DNA of 64,000 bases. It comes from Bacteriovoracaceae bacterium. GTDB lineage: Bacteria > Bdellovibrionota > Bacteriovoracia > Bacteriovoracales > Bacteriovoracaceae. The stretch lies in assembly GCA_020630335.1 (NCBI GenBank), contig JAHDBN010000006.1, forward strand, positions 16,139 to 80,138. Direction: 5' to 3'. The position numbers and the translations under genes are program-made. Position 1 is the stretch's first letter. Every line of letters begins with the position of its first letter. This document shows, in pieces, positions 35,988 through 44,452 of this stretch. The notes beneath the pieces were generated by a model, which was given only the letters and a program-made list of their open reading frames with translations, searched no databases and had not been told where the DNA came from.

Positions 35988-36896
35988 ATGAGTTCTACTC
36001 AAGAATTATACCTTAAAAAAATAGATACATTAATATCTAAATTGATTTTTGAAAAAAAAATAGTAGAACAAGAAAAAGATTGCTTCTTATCTAAAAAATC
36101 AGGAACTCATAAACTATTTTCTGTCATCATTCATGGCAATGAAACAATTGGACTTCATTTACTCGAATACATACTGAGTAATTACGATGACTTCAATAAT
36201 CTTTCTTTTTTAATTGGTAACAGAGATGCTTATTTATCGGATACGAGGTTTGTAGAAACAGATTTAAATAGAGCATTTCTAAGTAAAGAAAGAATTTCAA
36301 AAGAAAAGAAAAGAGCTCAAGAAATTGAAAGATTTGCAAAGAACTTTGAATACATACTTGATATTCATCAAACGACTCATTTATGTAAAAAAGAGTTTTG
36401 CTTAGTGAGAAGATCAAAAAAATCTAATAATCTTTATAAATCTATAAAGAAAAGTTTGAATAACTTTTCTCTTATATATTTAAACAATAAAAAACTCAGT
36501 AATGATGGAAGTACTTTTTCTGAATTTGCCACAGAAAAAGAAATCGGTTTTATTACACTGGAATTAGGCCAAAAAGGATTCTCTGCTGAAATGTTTGAGA
36601 AAGGAAGAAAAATATTGCAGAACTTCAATGAAGCAACAATCAAAGAGCTTCCAGAAGAAAGATTTCAAATACTTGAGATGTATTCTGATATAAAGAAACT
36701 AAATCAAAGCGATCATCTAATAAATGATCTTCAAAACTTGAGTTTTCTCACAAAAGAAACCTTAATCGCCAATATTAATAATCAAGAATTTTTCATGCCA
36801 ATTGATGGATATATTCTCTTCCCTAAATATGGAATTTATCAAAAACAATCAACTGAACTGTGTAAGATTCTTGTTATGAACGAAGTCGTTTTTTAA
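35988..36896 (+). CDS. AstE/aspartoacylase-family metallopeptidase
   Basis: This 302-residue protein belongs to the succinylglutamate desuccinylase/aspartoacylase (M14-like) family of zinc amidohydrolases. Zinc ligands are visible in HGNETIG (H and E) and in DIHQT, and the catalytic Glu sits in ITLELGQKG. The DLNRAF motif follows the first ligand pair. These enzymes remove acyl or peptide groups from small amino acids. The exact substrate is not readable. Its end overlaps the FliF-like gene by 4 bp on the opposite strand. Confidence 0.87.
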   Translation: MSSTQELYLKKIDTLISKLIFEKKIVEQEKDCFLSKKSGTHKLFSVIIHGNETIGLHLLEYILSNYDDFNNLSFLIGNRDAYLSDTRFVETDLNRAFLSKERISKEKKRAQEIERFAKNFEYILDIHQTTHLCKKEFCLVRRSKKSNNLYKSIKKSLNNFSLIYLNNKKLSNDGSTFSEFATEKEIGFITLELGQKGFSAEMFEKGRKILQNFNEATIKELPEERFQILEMYSDIKKLNQSDHLINDLQNLSFLTKETLIANINNQEFFMPIDGYILFPKYGIYQKQSTELCKILVMNEVVF

Positions 36897-38185
36897 TATT
36901 TTGAATTAATATATTTAATAGATTGTTTATGTATCTCTGGTGATATATCACCTATAAGATTTGAAGATTTTTGTATTTCATTATATCTTTTTTTTCCAAG
37001 CAACCATCTAAGTCTTAATTTATTAGGTCCTTTCATTTGTTTCATCATTGCAGCACATAATAAATTTGACTCAGTATCAAATATTTTTTTTATTTTTTCA
37101 CTTTCAAAGACACTAAAGGGCCAAGCTTGTATATGCTGATTTGTTTTAATAAAGCTAACTATGAGAAATAGGAACAAAGCAATTGATAGGTACTTAAATA
37201 ATTCTTTGAAAAATGAAATGATAGAAAACAAAAAACTCGTTTTTTCATTTCTCAGAAGAGATTTTTCAATAATATTCAAATCATTCTCTGTAAATATTTG
37301 TTCTTTTACATTTACACTGACCTTAATATTCAATTCATCTCTGATTTTTTTATCTAAAACAAGAACAGACAAATCTTTATATTCAGAATCAAAACTCTCT
37401 GAATCTTTATGAGCCATTCCTCCATTAATTATTATAGATTTAAAATGTTCGTTATTATTCACTTTGTATTGACTCTTTAGTAAAAAGTTTTTTTCTCCGA
37501 GTTCTTTTTTCCAATACTTTAAAACCAACTTATTACTTTCTTTTATTTCACCCAAAGCTTTAAAAAGATTTTTTGCCGACTTCTTTCTTGGTTTCTGATA
37601 AAAATCATAAAGAAGAGATCCATTCTTAGAAAAAATAACAATCTTCGATGAATCCTCAATGCCAAAATTAATTACCTTCAAAAGCTTTGATATTTTATTA
37701 AGCTCTAGAACTGAAATTTTTTTATTGTTTAAAAGAATAACTAATTCAGGATTTAAAGCTTTTTTTATTCCAAAAAAAGGATTTATGAAGATTTCTACTT
37801 CTCCAAGAATCAAATTCAAAGATTTTCTCAATTGATCTTTCTGAGTATTCTTATTTAAGTATTTAGAAATATTGCTTTGAGTAAGAGAAGAAGAAGTAAG
37901 GTTTCTCTCTTTTGATAATAAATCTTCTTTTAAGACGATTTCATTTTGAAGTTTCTCTTTATTATCTTTGTTGACAAGAATAGAGTTTGTTTCAACTTTT
38001 GTTTTATACTCAATGTTATTTATATTCAAAAATTCCTCTACTCGATCAAAGTCAGAATTAGAAAGTTCTGAAAATAAAGTAGCATAAGTTGTTTTTGAAA
38101 AACTAGAGAACAAGAAGAAAAGTAATAGGCAGGCTATCCAGAGCCCACCTAGAACTTTAAAGGGTATTTTAGTTAATCGTCTCAT
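36893..38185 (-). CDS. Divergent, shortened FliF-like ring protein
   Basis: This 430-residue protein has the FliF plan: membrane helix 1 (11-30), an YscJ/FliF module (33-85: YATLFSELSNSDFDRVEEFLN...NIEYKT), a second ring-building module (118-192: NPELVILLNNKKISVLELN...SKIVIFSKNGSLLYDF), a periplasmic stretch to 315, helix 2 (331-348) and a 75-residue cytoplasmic tail. FliF is usually about 550 residues with a larger third module and a FliG-binding C-terminus that I do not see here. It could be a second MS ring, an unrelated secretion-ring protein, or a decayed copy. It is the last gene of a three-gene minus operon. Confidence 0.72.
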   Translation of the reverse strand: MRRLTKIPFKVLGGLWIACLLLFFLFSSFSKTTYATLFSELSNSDFDRVEEFLNINNIEYKTKVETNSILVNKDNKEKLQNEIVLKEDLLSKERNLTSSSLTQSNISKYLNKNTQKDQLRKSLNLILGEVEIFINPFFGIKKALNPELVILLNNKKISVLELNKISKLLKVINFGIEDSSKIVIFSKNGSLLYDFYQKPRKKSAKNLFKALGEIKESNKLVLKYWKKELGEKNFLLKSQYKVNNNEHFKSIIINGGMAHKDSESFDSEYKDLSVLVLDKKIRDELNIKVSVNVKEQIFTENDLNIIEKSLLRNEKTSFLFSIISFFKELFKYLSIALFLFLIVSFIKTNQHIQAWPFSVFESEKIKKIFDTESNLLCAAMMKQMKGPNKLRLRWLLGKKRYNEIQKSSNLIGDISPEIHKQSIKYINSKY

Positions 38186-38200
38186 TTTTATTAATCTTAC

Positions 38201-39139
38201 CTATCTAAGATTAATAAAAAATTGAGATCCATCATTTCTATACTCGTTTATTTTGTTTCTAAGAGTTCTAATTGAAACTCCTAAAATTTTAGCAGCTTGA
38301 GTTCTATTCTCAGAAGTATGAATCAAAGCTTTTTTAATCAATAACTTTTCTGCTTCTTTCAAAGACATTAATTTTAAAGAACCTTCATCTTCTGAACTTC
38401 CAATAGATTCAACACCTTTTTCACTTTCCTCGATAGTATTCTTATCAATCATTGAAATTGCTGGGTTCTTTGCAATATTTTCAATAACTGAAGCTAGCTC
38501 ATTATAATTTTGAGACCAATACGATTGTGAAATAACATCAATTGCAGAGTCAGAGATTAATAAATTTGCTCTTTGATATTTTGCACAAAACTTTTGAGAG
38601 AAATATTCAACGATCATTTTTAAATCTTCTTTTCTATCTCTCAAGCTAGGTACGTTAATTTGAGTGCTATTGAAATAAGAAAATAATGCTCTGTTAAACC
38701 TTCCAGAACTTACATATTTTGATAAATTCTTTGTTGTTGTTGCTACCAATCTTATATCTAGGTCATAATCTGTTAATTCATTTAAAATCACATAAAGCTT
38801 TCTTTGAAAAACCTCATCTAATCCTTCGATATTAGCAAAGACAACCATTCCATTGTTTGCTTGCTCTAAAACACCTTTATGAAACTTTCCAGTTTCATCT
38901 CTAAATCCCAAAATATTTCGCTCTACTTCCTCTTTACTTTTGCTACAATCAACAATTAAAAGAGCTTGTTCTCTTCTTGCAGAGCTTTGATGAATATATC
39001 TACACAATGTTCTTTTACCTGTTCCTGATTCTCCAACAATTAATACTGGATTTTTTGTTACCGAAACATTTCTGGCAAAATTGATTGTTTGTAAATACTT
39101 TGGACTAACACCTAATACTTCAAAATTTTCAATTAACAT
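38201..39139 (-). CDS. Sigma-54 activator-like protein with inactive ATPase core
   Basis: This 312-residue protein has the AAA+ core of NtrC-type activators without any receiver domain. Walker A is intact (GESGTGKR, 36-43). The Walker B acids are lost (VVFANI, Ala102 and Asn103), and the GAFTGA sigma-54 contact loop is absent (ILGFRDETGK instead). The RFNRALFSYFN and LRDRKEDL parts remain. A Fis-type helix-turn-helix at 265-300 (NRTQAAKILGVSIRTLRNKI) can bind DNA. It probably acts as a DNA-binding regulator that cannot drive sigma-54 by ATP hydrolysis. A good GGAGG site precedes the start. Confidence 0.85.
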   Translation of the reverse strand: MLIENFEVLGVSPKYLQTINFARNVSVTKNPVLIVGESGTGKRTLCRYIHQSSARREQALLIVDCSKSKEEVERNILGFRDETGKFHKGVLEQANNGMVVFANIEGLDEVFQRKLYVILNELTDYDLDIRLVATTTKNLSKYVSSGRFNRALFSYFNSTQINVPSLRDRKEDLKMIVEYFSQKFCAKYQRANLLISDSAIDVISQSYWSQNYNELASVIENIAKNPAISMIDKNTIEESEKGVESIGSSEDEGSLKLMSLKEAEKLLIKKALIHTSENRTQAAKILGVSIRTLRNKINEYRNDGSQFFINLR

Positions 39140-39159: not shown

Positions 39160-39777
39160 TTATAGATTTTTTTGAGATGACTTTGCCTTCATCCTTGAGG
39201 CAATACTTATTTCTTTAAATTTTTTTTCATTCTTTAGCTTATTCTTAAGCAATGCATTCATATAATTTCTAAGATCTTGATATCTTTTTTCTTTTAATAA
39301 GATCTTTGATCGGACTAGCCATTTAAGTTCCATTAGGTTGCTATTTGCAGCAGGGTGAATTTTATTTAACTTTTTATGTAAATCGTTAAAATTATTTTGA
39401 TTTCTACTATTATATTCTAAAACTCTAAGTCTCGCTTCTATTGCTTGTTTTTTGCTCTGAGCATGTTCTAAAGCCTTTTGATATGCTGTTATAATATTAT
39501 TATTTGGCAATCCAAGCATCTCTGAGATTAAACCAATTCTTATATGAGCATGTGATAAATTAAAATGATCTGCATTCAAAACAACAAAATTCCTGAAACT
39601 CTCTAAAGAATTTGCTAGTTTTTTATCTTGAAAGGCTTTTTCAGCATTGTTGAAATAATTAGATTCTCTAGAGCTTTCTAATAATTCATAATTCCAATAA
39701 ATTAAGTCATTCTGATTTTCTTCTATTGAAAATAAATTAATTGATAAAATAATGAAAAGAAATCCTATCTTGCTCAC
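39160..39777 (-). CDS. Secreted helical TPR-like protein
   Basis: This 205-residue protein starts with GTG at 39777 and carries a signal peptide (IGFLFIILSINLFSI). The rest is helical with a TPR-like rhythm (NAEKAFQDKKLANSLESFRNFVVLNADHF...AYQKALEHA). It lies first in the operon with the activator-like and FliF-like genes, so a role in assembling or tuning that ring is likely. No exact family is recognised. A CCTCC...GGAGG hairpin lies 22 nt before the start. Confidence 0.72.
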   Translation of the reverse strand: MSKIGFLFIILSINLFSIEENQNDLIYWNYELLESSRESNYFNNAEKAFQDKKLANSLESFRNFVVLNADHFNLSHAHIRIGLISEMLGLPNNNIITAYQKALEHAQSKKQAIEARLRVLEYNSRNQNNFNDLHKKLNKIHPAANSNLMELKWLVRSKILLKEKRYQDLRNYMNALLKNKLKNEKKFKEISIASRMKAKSSQKNL

Positions 39778-39945: not shown

Positions 39946-41541
39946 TTAGAGCAAGAGCTTCTTTTTCTTAATCTTTTCAATCAATGTTGTTCGATTAAGG
40001 TTGAGTAATTTAGATGCTTTATTTTTATTACCCTTAGTTCTATCAAGTGCTTGAAGAATTAGAGAATCTTCTATATCTGATAAAATTTGTTTTAAGAAAA
40101 CACCTTCTTCTGGTAATTCAAATAGCGTTTTATAGGCCCTGTTTGTCAGAGGATTACCTTTAAAGATTTTGCTAGGAAGATCTGTTGGGATGATCGTTGA
40201 TCCACCTTTTAAAATAACTAACCTTTCGATTACATTTTCTAATTCTCTAACGTTTCCTGGCCAATTATAATTTAATAATAAATCATAAGACTCTGCAGAA
40301 AATTCAACCATATTACTTTGATCAGCACTTACATATTTTTTCAGGAAAAAAGAAATTAATAAAGGAATATCTTCTTTTCTCTCTCTCAATGCTGGCAAGT
40401 TAATAGGTATAACGTTGAGCCTGTAAAAAAGATCTTCTCTGAATCGACTCTCATCAACTTCATTTTCTAAATTTTTATGAGTAGCAGCTATAATCCTAGT
40501 ATTTACACTTACAGTCTTGCTAGAACCTACAGCTTCAAATTGTCTTGATTGTAAAACTCTTAAAAGTTTTACTTGAAGAACCAAAGGCATATCCCCAATC
40601 TCATCTAAGAAGATTGATGATTGATCTGCTAGATGAAACTTTCCTTTCCTATCTGAAATAGCACCTGTAAAAGCACCTTTCACGTGTCCAAATAATTCTG
40701 ACTCAAGTAAATCTTGGGGAATGGCTCCACAATTAACTGCAACCATTGATTGATTTGTTCTTGGTGAGATTTGGTGAAGAGCTCTAGCAACAAGTTCTTT
40801 TCCTGTTCCAGACTCTCCTGAGATTAAAACAGTAGAATCAGAATGAGCAACTTTTTTGATTCTATCAAAAACTAATCTCATTGCAGTTGATCTTCCGATC
40901 ATGTTTACAAATACATCATCATCTGAAAGCGAAGGAAGTATTGGATTCTTCTTAAAATCACTTGGTACAATAGTTGATTCATTCAACTCATTTATAGGAT
41001 CTTGAGAGTTAAATTGCGTATTAACTTTCGGAAGACCAAGTGCTTGTCCTTTGATAATCATTCTGAGTTTTTGAGCAAAACCGTCTACGATGAGCTTATT
41101 TAAATGTTCCAGTTCAAAAGGTTTCGTTAAATAATGATAAACACCTTTTTTGGTAGCTGAAATAGCAGTCTCAATACTTGCAAAACCAGTCATAACGATT
41201 GAGAAAAACTTTACTTGCTTCTCATATAAAAGATCTAATAAAAACAATCCATCATGACCAGAACCAAGACTAATATCTGCAAGTAAGCAAAAAGGCTCAG
41301 ATGTAGGATTGTTTACAAAGTTCTCTAAGAAATCACTTCCATTATTGAAAACAATAACTTCAGCATTCATCGCTCTTTCAAGATAGATTTTAAGACTCAT
41401 TGAGAGTGCTTTATCGTCTTCTAAAATAACAATTTTGGGAACGTCACAAAATACAATGCGATGAGGGGCATCCGATGCCTTGAAAGGGTTTTGTTCTTTG
41501 TTCAAGTGGTATGAACTAGCTAAGTTATTTAAATCATCCAT
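39946..41541 (-). CDS. NtrC-family sigma-54-dependent response regulator
   Basis: This 531-residue protein is a complete activator. The receiver domain spans residues 35-155, with acid cluster E41-D42-D43, phosphoacceptor Asp89 (LLADIS), Thr118 and Lys140. The AAA+ domain (210-440) carries GESGTGKE, GAFTGA and a full Walker B (FLDEIGDMP). A Fis-type DNA-binding helix pair ends the protein (GNKNKASKLLNLNRTTLIEKI). It turns on sigma-54 promoters after phosphorylation by an unlinked kinase. The neighbouring FliF-like operon makes a flagellar-type regulon likely but not proven. Confidence 0.93.
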   Translation of the reverse strand: MDDLNNLASSYHLNKEQNPFKASDAPHRIVFCDVPKIVILEDDKALSMSLKIYLERAMNAEVIVFNNGSDFLENFVNNPTSEPFCLLADISLGSGHDGLFLLDLLYEKQVKFFSIVMTGFASIETAISATKKGVYHYLTKPFELEHLNKLIVDGFAQKLRMIIKGQALGLPKVNTQFNSQDPINELNESTIVPSDFKKNPILPSLSDDDVFVNMIGRSTAMRLVFDRIKKVAHSDSTVLISGESGTGKELVARALHQISPRTNQSMVAVNCGAIPQDLLESELFGHVKGAFTGAISDRKGKFHLADQSSIFLDEIGDMPLVLQVKLLRVLQSRQFEAVGSSKTVSVNTRIIAATHKNLENEVDESRFREDLFYRLNVIPINLPALRERKEDIPLLISFFLKKYVSADQSNMVEFSAESYDLLLNYNWPGNVRELENVIERLVILKGGSTIIPTDLPSKIFKGNPLTNRAYKTLFELPEEGVFLKQILSDIEDSLILQALDRTKGNKNKASKLLNLNRTTLIEKIKKKKLLL

Positions 41542-41626: not shown

Positions 41627-42790
41627 TTAAAGAAAGCTCTTAATCTCATCGACCTTATTTAACTCTTCCCACGCAAAAAATCCTTTATGAGAATCACGTC
41701 CGAAATGACCATATGCCGCCGTTGGTGAGTAAATAGGTGATAATAAATTTAAAGAATCAATGATCGCTTTAGGTCTTAAATCAAAGACTTTTGAAATGAT
41801 TTCCACAATCTTTTCTTCTGATATTTTTGCTGTGCCAAAAGTATTAACATTTACTGACATTGGATGAGCAACACCAATAGCATAAGCAACCTGAACCAAT
41901 GCTTGATCACATAAACCTGCAGCAACAATATTTTTTGCAATATGCCTTGTTGCGTAAGCAGCTGATCTATCAACTTTAGATGGATCTTTTCCAGAGAAAG
42001 CACCGCCACCATGAGCTCCATGGCCACCGTAGGTATCAACTATAATTTTTCTTCCAGTTAATCCACAATCTCCCATCGGGCCACCAATAACAAATCTTCC
42101 AGTAGGATTAATATAATATTTTGTATTGCTATCAATTAAGTTCGAAGGAACTATTTTTTTTATTACTTCTTCTTGAATACCTTCTGTTACTTGAGACAAA
42201 GTCATCTCTTCAGAGTGTTGAGTAGAAACTACGATGCTATCAATCCTAGCTAATTTTCCATCTTTATACTCAACAGAAACTTGTGTTTTCCCATCTGCTC
42301 TAAGATCTCCAAGTACACCATTTTTTCTTACCTCAGAAAGTTTATGTGCAAGCTTATGAGATAAATCAATACTCATTGGCATTAAAGAGTCAGTTTCATT
42401 AACAGCATAACCAAACATAATTCCTTGGTCCCCAGCACCTTGTTCTTTAAAAGTACCTTCTCCTTCAGTAACACCTTGAGAGATATCAACTGATTGCTTA
42501 TCCAGACTCACCATTACACTGCAAGTATTACAATCAAAACCTTTATCCGAATGATCATAACCTATCTCTTTAATTTTATTTCTTACTACATTTTGAAAAT
42601 CTACATTAGTTTTAGATGTCACCTCACCAGCTAAAACAACTAAGCCTGTTGTAATCATAGTCTCACAAGCCACTCTTGAGTTTTTATCTCCTTCTAAATA
42701 AGCATCTAGAACAGCATCAGAAATTTGATCAGCCATTTTATCTGGATGCCCTTCTGTAACTGATTCTGAAGTAAAAATATAATCTTTCAT
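41627..42790 (-). CDS. metK: S-adenosylmethionine synthetase
   Basis: This 387-residue enzyme makes S-adenosylmethionine from methionine and ATP. The family signatures are [21 protein letters not shown] at the start, [12 protein letters not shown], and [20 protein letters not shown]. Length is typical. It is monocistronic behind its own promoter, with an AGGAG site. No SAM riboswitch is visible in the 57-bp gap upstream. Confidence 0.97.
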
Positions 42791-42847: not shown

Positions 42848-44452
42848 CTATGGCTTTCTTCGTGCAAAAAATTTAAAAATATTGGGATCTCTAAATGAAT
42901 AAATCTGTTTACTTACAAGCTCTACTACATAGTTTTCTTTTTGAATATCTATCGCCATATACTCAGAGCCACTTTGTTTAAACTTAAATAAATATCGAAA
43001 ATTTTCATTTTTAATTTTTTCACTTAGGGCCGCGTTATAAATCTTTTTTCCCACAATCGTAGATAAAGAATCATTATTCTTGTGCCAAATTTCAGCCATA
43101 TTAATTCTTCCTAGCATCGAAACTCTAGAGAAATAATAAAATGGTTTTTGCTTATCCCGATCAGCATTATGAGAATTAATAAAATCAACACTAATTTTTA
43201 AATTCTTATCTCTTAAAGCATTTGACCAATCAGACATGGGAGGACAGAAAATATTTTTTACTGAAGAAATATAATGATAAGTAAACGAATATTCTCCTGT
43301 TCTAAATAATGTATTGGACCATGGGTATTTTGATGTATTCAATCCCTTAATGTGTTTGTAGATAGAATCATTAGAACTTAAATTATTAAAAGGAGAAGTA
43401 ATAGTTCGATTAAAAAAAGTTTTTAGCACATCATATTTATCAATTCCATCTGGATCTAAAGAACCTACTTCATTATAAAGCATTGTTTCTAGAAGATAAG
43501 CTTTTCTATAAATATCTGGCAAAGTAGCTAGGTATGAATAAACTTTTCCTTCTTGCCCATAAACAAAATCTTTAAACTTTTCTACAGAAAATGATTTATC
43601 TTTCTTTTCTTTTTTATGAGGAGAAAAAATTAATTTATTATAAAAATCAAATTGTTCCTGAGATTTAATTCTCCACTTCTTAATTCCACTTAAATATTGT
43701 CTTTTGTTAGAATATTTTTTTTTCTTTTTTAACTGTCCAATTAACCATTCTAAATCATATCTGAGATCATCATCCAAAAAAACAAATGTTTTATTAAGTT
43801 TTAGTCGAATAGTATCTAGGCTAGTTCGAAATAAAGTATCTCTACCACGGCCAGTGCTAACTCCATCTTCTAGTATTTTTCTACGAACAAAGCTTATATT
43901 TTTATTCAGATAATCTTTTTTCGCTTTAAAGTCTTCATAGACAGCTCTGTTTTGCAAATGATTCACAGGGTAGCTAAAGCCAAATAGATAAAAAAGTTTA
44001 TCTTCTAGTTCATAGAAAGATTTCTTTATATTATCAATTGAATTCTTTGCAGAATTAACAAGTTTTACACCATATTGAAATTTAATTTCTTTTTTATACT
44101 TAAGCTCTAAGTTTTTATCGATACTATTCTGCATGGATTCTAATGTGAAAGTGATATCTTCTTTTTTTAGATTTCTTGATAAACGCTGAGATAATTTATT
44201 TATCCAGGTAATTTTTTCTTTTAATAAGTTCTGATTTCTTCTCAAGGCCTCTTTATCAACAAGTCCTGTTCTATAAGGAACATAAAAACCTGTATCCCTA
44301 AACTCTTCTTTTAACTTATTATATTTTTGTAAATCATTAGGTGAGCAGGTTAAAGCACTCAAGCTACCGAGATATCTATAATATTGATCTTTATTAAAAG
44401 AGTTAGGAAATAAAGACAAAGAGAATAAAAGAATAAAAATGCTAATTTTCAT
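42848..44452 (-). CDS. Secreted protein of unknown family, 534 residues
   Basis: A signal peptide (ISIFILLFSLSLFPNSF) precedes a long soluble, mostly helical protein rich in Lys, Asn, Tyr and Phe. Positions 30-260 look like coiled or alpha-helical segments. Around 325-355 the passage LYNEVGSLDPDGIDKYDVLKT followed by FFNR faintly recalls the SleB-type cell-wall hydrolase core (E...G..A...NR), but too weakly to assign. It sits one base after mpl in the same direction, a gene for murein peptide recycling. A murein-related role is thus possible but unproven. Confidence 0.72.
   Translation of the reverse strand: MKISIFILLFSLSLFPNSFNKDQYYRYLGSLSALTCSPNDLQKYNKLKEEFRDTGFYVPYRTGLVDKEALRRNQNLLKEKITWINKLSQRLSRNLKKEDITFTLESMQNSIDKNLELKYKKEIKFQYGVKLVNSAKNSIDNIKKSFYELEDKLFYLFGFSYPVNHLQNRAVYEDFKAKKDYLNKNISFVRRKILEDGVSTGRGRDTLFRTSLDTIRLKLNKTFVFLDDDLRYDLEWLIGQLKKKKKYSNKRQYLSGIKKWRIKSQEQFDFYNKLIFSPHKKEKKDKSFSVEKFKDFVYGQEGKVYSYLATLPDIYRKAYLLETMLYNEVGSLDPDGIDKYDVLKTFFNRTITSPFNNLSSNDSIYKHIKGLNTSKYPWSNTLFRTGEYSFTYHYISSVKNIFCPPMSDWSNALRDKNLKISVDFINSHNADRDKQKPFYYFSRVSMLGRINMAEIWHKNNDSLSTIVGKKIYNAALSEKIKNENFRYLFKFKQSGSEYMAIDIQKENYVVELVSKQIYSFRDPNIFKFFARRKP

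Follow-up and report, generated by a model that had tools for sequence, protein, structure and literature searches.

The MS ring is usually regarded as nothing more than the base on which a flagellum stands, with the export gate inside it. A FliF-like open reading frame in the stretch of Bacteriovoracaceae DNA analyzed here (64,000 nucleotides, hereafter the window) raises the question of what a protein of this ring is doing where the open reading frames scanned include no other fli or flg gene and no type III secretion gene.

Anatomy of the FliF-like protein

The reading frame runs from an ATG start on the minus strand and encodes 430 residues, the length given by the first-pass annotation. 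Pfam YscJ_FliF matches residues 30–102 with 32 bits (cut-off 24.4), and NCBIfam TIGR00206 (fliF) matches residues 3–84 with 32 bits, well short of the 130 required by its equivalog cut-off. Hydropathy places membrane helices at residues ~11–29 and ~328–346, the first of which is also a helix (9–29) in an AlphaFold2 model built with an alignment of 32 relatives. In this model, module 1 (residues 34–85) forms a block with a pLDDT of mostly 77–96, module 2 (residues 105–194) one of ~70–87, and the helical cytoplasmic tail (residues 362–429) has a pLDDT of ~80; the remaining periplasmic part (residues 231–319) is mostly below 50. A PDB sequence search with the protein gave no match. Foldseek searches of the PDB with the model returned FliF MS rings (best E 3.9e-8) as well as EscJ and PrgK, and the sister protein from G002 likewise gave FliF and EscJ/PrgK-type matches. 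The parts of the protein are as follows.

36893..38185, minus strand: FliF-like protein, 430 aa, sole FliF of the genome (ORF, Pfam/NCBIfam, AlphaFold2, Foldseek)
38099..38155, minus strand: membrane helix 1, residues 11–29 (hydropathy; model helix 9–29)
37931..38086, minus strand: ring-building module 1, residues 34–85 (Pfam; AlphaFold2)
37604..37873, minus strand: ring-building module 2, residues 105–194 (AlphaFold2; EscJ/PrgK-type fold matches)
37244..37585, minus strand: reduced module 3, residues 201–314, insert deleted (weak family FliF HMM match, alignment; low pLDDT)
37148..37204, minus strand: membrane helix 2, residues 328–346 (hydropathy)
36896..37105, minus strand: cytoplasmic tail, residues 361–430, putatively FliG middle domain-like (profile-profile comparison, four-species tail alignment)

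Pfam, AlphaFold2, Foldseek and hydropathy agree that YscJ/FliF ring-building modules 1 and 2 are present between two membrane helices, as had been read from the DNA letters, and a ring-building fold does appear in the structure prediction. What remains of canonical FliF is the pair of membrane helices with modules 1 and 2 and the end of module 3; alignment shows that an insert of roughly 100 residues has been deleted from module 3, and the protein has no ASVXV-type motif or FliG-binding tail and has given up much of the linker joining modules 1 and 2. In FliF the module 3 insert points into the ring lumen (PMC4768692), and the ASVXV-type motif is thought to be needed for export core recruitment or multimerisation (PMC7064773). 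The first-pass annotation had counted the third module and the FliG-binding tail as missing or unrecognizable. This was right for the insert, but the end of module 3, its last strand and the helix after it, can still be recognized by a weak match of family FliF HMM positions 420–473 to residues 290–345; it was right also that the tail itself has gone, but a segment resembling the FliG middle domain appears to stand there in this genus.

The gene stands at the locus of the ancestral flagellar operon

In the flagellated relative G005 the gene order is metK, a sigma54 response regulator, a 900-aa TPR-like protein, a receiver-less regulator, flgB, flgC, fliE, fliF, fliG, fliH, fliI and fliJ. The window has metK, the response regulator, a remnant of the TPR protein, the receiver-less regulator and the FliF-like gene, followed by an unrelated convergent AspA/AstE-like gene, so that flgB, flgC and fliE are missing, as are fliG and all the genes after it. 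The neighbors upstream of the FliF-like gene are listed here.

38201..39139, minus strand: receiver-less sigma54-type (FlbD/FleQ-like) regulator without a GAFTGA loop, same operon (orthologue of the regulator before flgB in 77/80 loci)
39160..39777, minus strand: 205-aa remnant of a TPR-like exported protein of ~900 aa (E 5e-9 against the 900-aa protein of G005, 24% identical across 155 residues)
39946..41541, minus strand: sigma54 response regulator with receiver domain and GAFTGA (Pfam; 55% identical to the one at the G005 flagellar locus)
41627..42790, minus strand: metK, synteny anchor upstream of the flagellar operon (73% identity to G005; same place where loci are long enough)

A search with the regulator, using one genome per species, yielded 80 loci, of which 77 carry the flagellar operon in the order seen in G005 within the limits of their contigs (a few without a recognized fliG); the other three (L045, L046 and L048, from G001, G003 and G002, respectively) have the reduced form found in the window. 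The FliF-like gene is an orthologue of flagellar fliF by synteny, and it lies where the ancestral operon lay. It had been described as outside any flagellar gene cluster, which is not the case: this is the site of such a cluster from which the rest has been deleted. Only 15 bp separate the regulator from the FliF-like gene in the window, and ~4 bp or less in the other species, so TPR remnant, regulator and fliF look like one operon. On the far side of metK, the window encodes a 534-aa protein (42848–44452) with no Pfam match, whose place is conserved in relatives and whose counterpart in sister species is ~32–34% identical to that of G005.

Loss of the flagellum in the genus

The host genome (2.36 Mb, 98.35% complete) contains the FliF-like gene as its sole YscJ_FliF match. 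Family searches found no FlhA/SctV, FliG_C, FliM/FliN C domain or rod/hook N domain in it, and no MotB plug domain, whereas sigma54 is present. The other three species of the genus likewise gave no FlhA, FliG_C, FliM/N or rod/hook match and have kept sigma54, and PF00771 (FlhA/SctV) has no match across the genus. The flagellum and its export machinery have been lost in the genus, a claim that covers the families tested, namely FlhA/SctV, FliG_C, FliM/N and rod/hook. The first-pass annotation's statement that no flagellar or type III secretion genes lie around thus extends, in these families, to the whole genome. Its label of a second-ring FliF does not survive, as the genome-wide search found no canonical FliF beside this one; the reading it had named as its own refutation, an only FliF that is just divergent, is correct as to the number, but this FliF has outlived its flagellum.

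Among 129 genomes of the family, a reduced FliF occurs in only five, the four species of this genus and G031, and nearly all others have a canonical FliF scoring ~190–219 bits; in the exceptions the gene is split or, in a few incomplete genomes, has no clear match. Nine FlhA-less genomes from other families of the phylum gave zero FliF matches. In a tree of the regulator the genus is monophyletic (100/99), and the flagellated L047 is its sister (99/92). G031, a genome of 1.6 Mb from another genus, lacks FlhA, FliM/N and rod/hook proteins and also has the TPR-regulator-FliF-like arrangement; it is placed away from the genus, and 2% of bootstrap trees join both, although its branch is long and its placement in this tree unsure. 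With G031 outside the genus clade, two separate flagellar losses are needed. At the G031 locus (L040:4572–9690), the FliF-like protein has 531 residues and a different, long cytoplasmic tail, in which Pfam gives a hint of MgtE_N (E 0.006).

The cytoplasmic tail and the FliG middle domain

The tail comprises ~85 residues in the window and in G001 and ~145 in G002 and G003, and a stretch of ~70 can be aligned gap-free with the middle domain of FliG (FliG_M). A profile of the four tails matched FliG_M with a probability of 68 and a score of 32, a score reached by 0 of 292 column shuffles (10.9 ± 2.0, maximum 17; artefact scores above 100 excluded). The equally helical FliG_N scored 14. Among 124 windows of 12 locus families, FliG_M was the best match (25.9 versus 22.5), the next-best control being the C-terminal tail of FliF. 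The significance given by hhalign for one and the same tail alignment went from P 0.003 with a FliG profile from the family alone to 0.00046 when FliG from other families was added, and to 4.8e-5 (the E value of the above match) with the FliG_M sub-profile; since these profiles were tried successively, the final value is somewhat favored by choice.

The match belongs to the four-species alignment: the tail encoded in the window does not score against FliG_M by itself, Pfam FliG domains have no match in the tail, and a whole-FliG HMM found nothing above shuffles in single reduced FliF proteins. For the model of the long-tailed G002 protein, Foldseek returned no FliG among its best 50 matches, and the FliG_M-like part of this model is a row of five helices, as would be expected by eye from the FliG_M sequence. 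The last 60–70 residues of the long tails in G002 and G003 have only a weak resemblance to FliG_C, with 5 of 293 shuffles scoring as high. Because Pfam and Foldseek are silent and the window's tail alone does not score, we grade the relation to FliG_M as moderately supported; on these sequence comparisons, the protein of this genus would be a natural FliF-FliG_M fusion. A deletion joining fliF to fliG offers a simple origin for such a tail, as fliG was the next gene in the ancestor. For G031, whose tail has no profile match to FliG_M, we do not claim such a fusion.

Separately, several flagellated genomes (G005, G011, G013, G029, G033 and others) carry one to three extra short FliG_C open reading frames (~140–190 aa) beside a full FliG, and G031 has a weak short FliG_C match too.

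Selection on the FliF-like gene

In the best-resolved pair, G002 and G003, the FliF-like gene is clearly under purifying selection, with a pN of 0.23 and a pS of 0.75 (saturated). Its reading frame is intact in 4/4 species of the genus, despite random single changes creating a stop at a rate of 5–6% in these AT-rich genes. These two observations exclude a completely unconstrained gene for G002 and G003. Between the two halves of the genus the FliF-like proteins are only 19–23% identical (19–33% for FliF and the TPR remnant together), whereas in the same comparison the two regulators stand at 75–81% and metK at 87%; the regulators are strongly conserved throughout (75–97% identity). The TPR protein has shrunk from ~900 to 205–294 residues. 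Constraint on the FliF-like gene is weaker on the branch of the window, and decay there is possible.

Regulators and stators retained with the gene

The GAFTGA loop is missing from the receiver-less regulator in the window and also in flagellated close relatives, whereas orthologues at the syntenic position in two further families of the phylum (L185:4093–5058 and L186:4327–5358) have GSFTGA or GAFTGA, so loss of the loop apparently preceded that of the flagellum. No sigma54 promoters above chance were found near the operon or in the window. When the link between FliF and the regulator was examined in other families, the flagellum-less G040, with no FliF match, was seen possibly to keep a related regulator.

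MotB-type stator genes are present in the long-tailed G002 and G003 and in G031 and absent from the short-tailed G000 and G001. The MotAB genes lie at L144:673–2205, L145:674–2205 and L147:699–2202, those of G002 and G003 being 89–91% identical to each other. This pair is orthologous to the secondary, not the canonical, pair of flagellated relatives such as G013, and we therefore rejected it as a retained flagellar stator; such secondary stators may serve a non-flagellar structure.

What the remnant may do

The FliF-like protein is very probably an MS-ring remnant in a lineage that lacks the rest of the flagellum. Its ring-building fold, the absence of FlhA/SctV, rotor and rod and the selection seen in G002 and G003 together make a use outside the flagellum likely, and a ring protein that was kept at its old locus after the flagellum went, and that seems to have taken in part of its partner, probably has a job that needs no flagellum. 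We accordingly lean, with some reserve, toward a selected non-flagellar function. The earlier idea of an MS-ring variant for a dedicated assembly fits this to the extent that the ring fold is there and a non-flagellar use is likely, but the protein is an orphaned flagellar FliF and not an extra copy beside a canonical one.

How such a remnant might work can be outlined. The ancestral TPR-regulator-flgB-flgC-fliE-fliF-fliG-... operon shrank to TPR-regulator-fliF; the inner-membrane ring would still assemble without a secretion core, and its cytoplasmic face could act as a membrane platform. In polar flagellates, sigma54 two-component systems sense FliF/FliG assembly, and proteins of the MS and C rings are needed for the activity of FlbD as well (PMC7064773). 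Since such regulators respond to assembled FliF/FliG in flagellated bacteria, the likeliest clients here would be the retained ones, the in-operon receiver-less regulator and the adjoining sigma54 response regulator. Ring formation and contact with the regulators are both inferred. Several points speak against a platform: the checkpoint as known requires an export core, missing here, and the ASVXV motif of FliF, which is lost; the in-operon regulator has no GAFTGA; no sigma54 promoter rises above chance; FliF and the TPR remnant diverge rapidly, and the tail is shortened in the window and G001; and G040 is a possible counter-example. As a specific mechanism the regulator platform is thus a tentative proposal with the odds somewhat against it. 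For the statement as a whole, an orphan MS-ring remnant with a non-flagellar job as a platform for the co-retained regulators, we would put the probability at about 0.4. The wider formulation, a stand-alone FliF-FliG_M ring without a type III export core that is selected for a non-flagellar task, be it a signaling platform or a new envelope machine, comes just short of an even chance.

The gene could instead be a relic in decay, the only structural gene left from the lost operon, co-transcribed with a useful upstream regulator and functionless under weak residual constraint. The divergence between the halves of the genus, with neighbors at 75–90% identity, would fit this, as would the reduced TPR protein and the truncation of the tail in two species (the window and G001). 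However, the constraint between G002 and G003 is clear, frames have stayed open in all four species, and the gene was kept through two separate flagellar losses, and we consider a relic unlikely. Recruitment as the structural ring of another envelope machine, such as a gliding or MotAB-driven motor, a pilus base or a prey-entry structure, would account for ring modules kept without an export core and for MotB-type genes in just the long-tailed species and G031. Against it, the MotAB of G002 and G003 is the orthologue of a secondary pair, a correlation cannot be drawn from just three lineages, and the operon contains no machine gene; nothing we found ties the protein to prey entry or to a secretion structure, the two uses offered as examples in the first-pass annotation. 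This second possibility seems to us rather improbable.

Modules 1 and 2 are the part of FliF that is homologous to SctJ, and the structural matches to EscJ and PrgK could be read as signs of an injectisome or a reduced type III secretion system. The lack of FlhA/SctV anywhere in the genus contradicts such a reading, as does the synteny with flagellar fliF, and the protein has a second membrane helix and a FliF-type end of module 3; an SctJ-type component is very improbable. A mis-assembled or contaminated stretch might be suspected, since the genomes examined from the genus are multi-contig assemblies and the named ones MAGs, but separate assemblies of four species agree on this arrangement, flanked on either side by conserved genes, which contradicts an artefact and leaves it scarcely credible.

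Comparison with known systems

Having outlived every flagellar partner family tested, this ring protein allows one to ask what role a ring may have of its own, for example in anchoring or informing sigma54-type regulators. The flagellated sister L047, the long-tailed species and the short-tailed species represent a series of steps by which a flagellar operon eroded. Searches of the open-access literature turned up no account of a FliF retained in the complete absence of an export core.

The canonical FliF of the Bacteriovoracaceae (for example in G005, L041:7566–9230) shares with the reduced protein its locus, modules 1 and 2, the two membrane helices and the end of module 3, but it has ~550–570 residues, the module 3 insert, the ASVXV-type motif, a FliG-binding tail and a full flagellar operon, and the two are 16–21% identical. 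Engineered FliF-FliG fusions of Salmonella form rings in a non-motile host (PMC6079021) and, like the putative fusion here, have FliF and FliG on one chain, although their FliF modules are complete and their FliG complete or nearly so. SpoIIIAG and SpoIIIAH of Bacillus sporulation carry FliF/SctJ-like ring-building modules outside flagella and injectisomes (PMC4768692); compared by description, they differ in not being flagellar remnants at a flagellar locus and in having no FliG-like tail described for them.

The nearest parallel is the FliF-FliG_M fusion of the non-flagellated Chlamydiaceae, which have kept FlhA and an injectisome (Bergeron 2016, PMC4768692). Likened by description, both cases combine the lack of a flagellum with a shortened FliF, two membrane helices, a reduced periplasmic part and a cytoplasmic region that is, or here may be, of the FliG_M type. 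The Chlamydia protein has ~330 residues with module 2 recognizable rather than module 1, whereas module 1 is the clearest here, and Chlamydia keeps FlhA and a functional injectisome that interacts with its flagellar proteins, whereas this genus has no FlhA/SctV. As the fusion here would have arisen inside the Bacteriovoracaceae, at the native locus and next to a flagellated sister, it would be convergent with that of Chlamydia and not related to it by common descent, and this raises the question of whether loss of the flagellum repeatedly yields the same FliF-FliG_M fusion.
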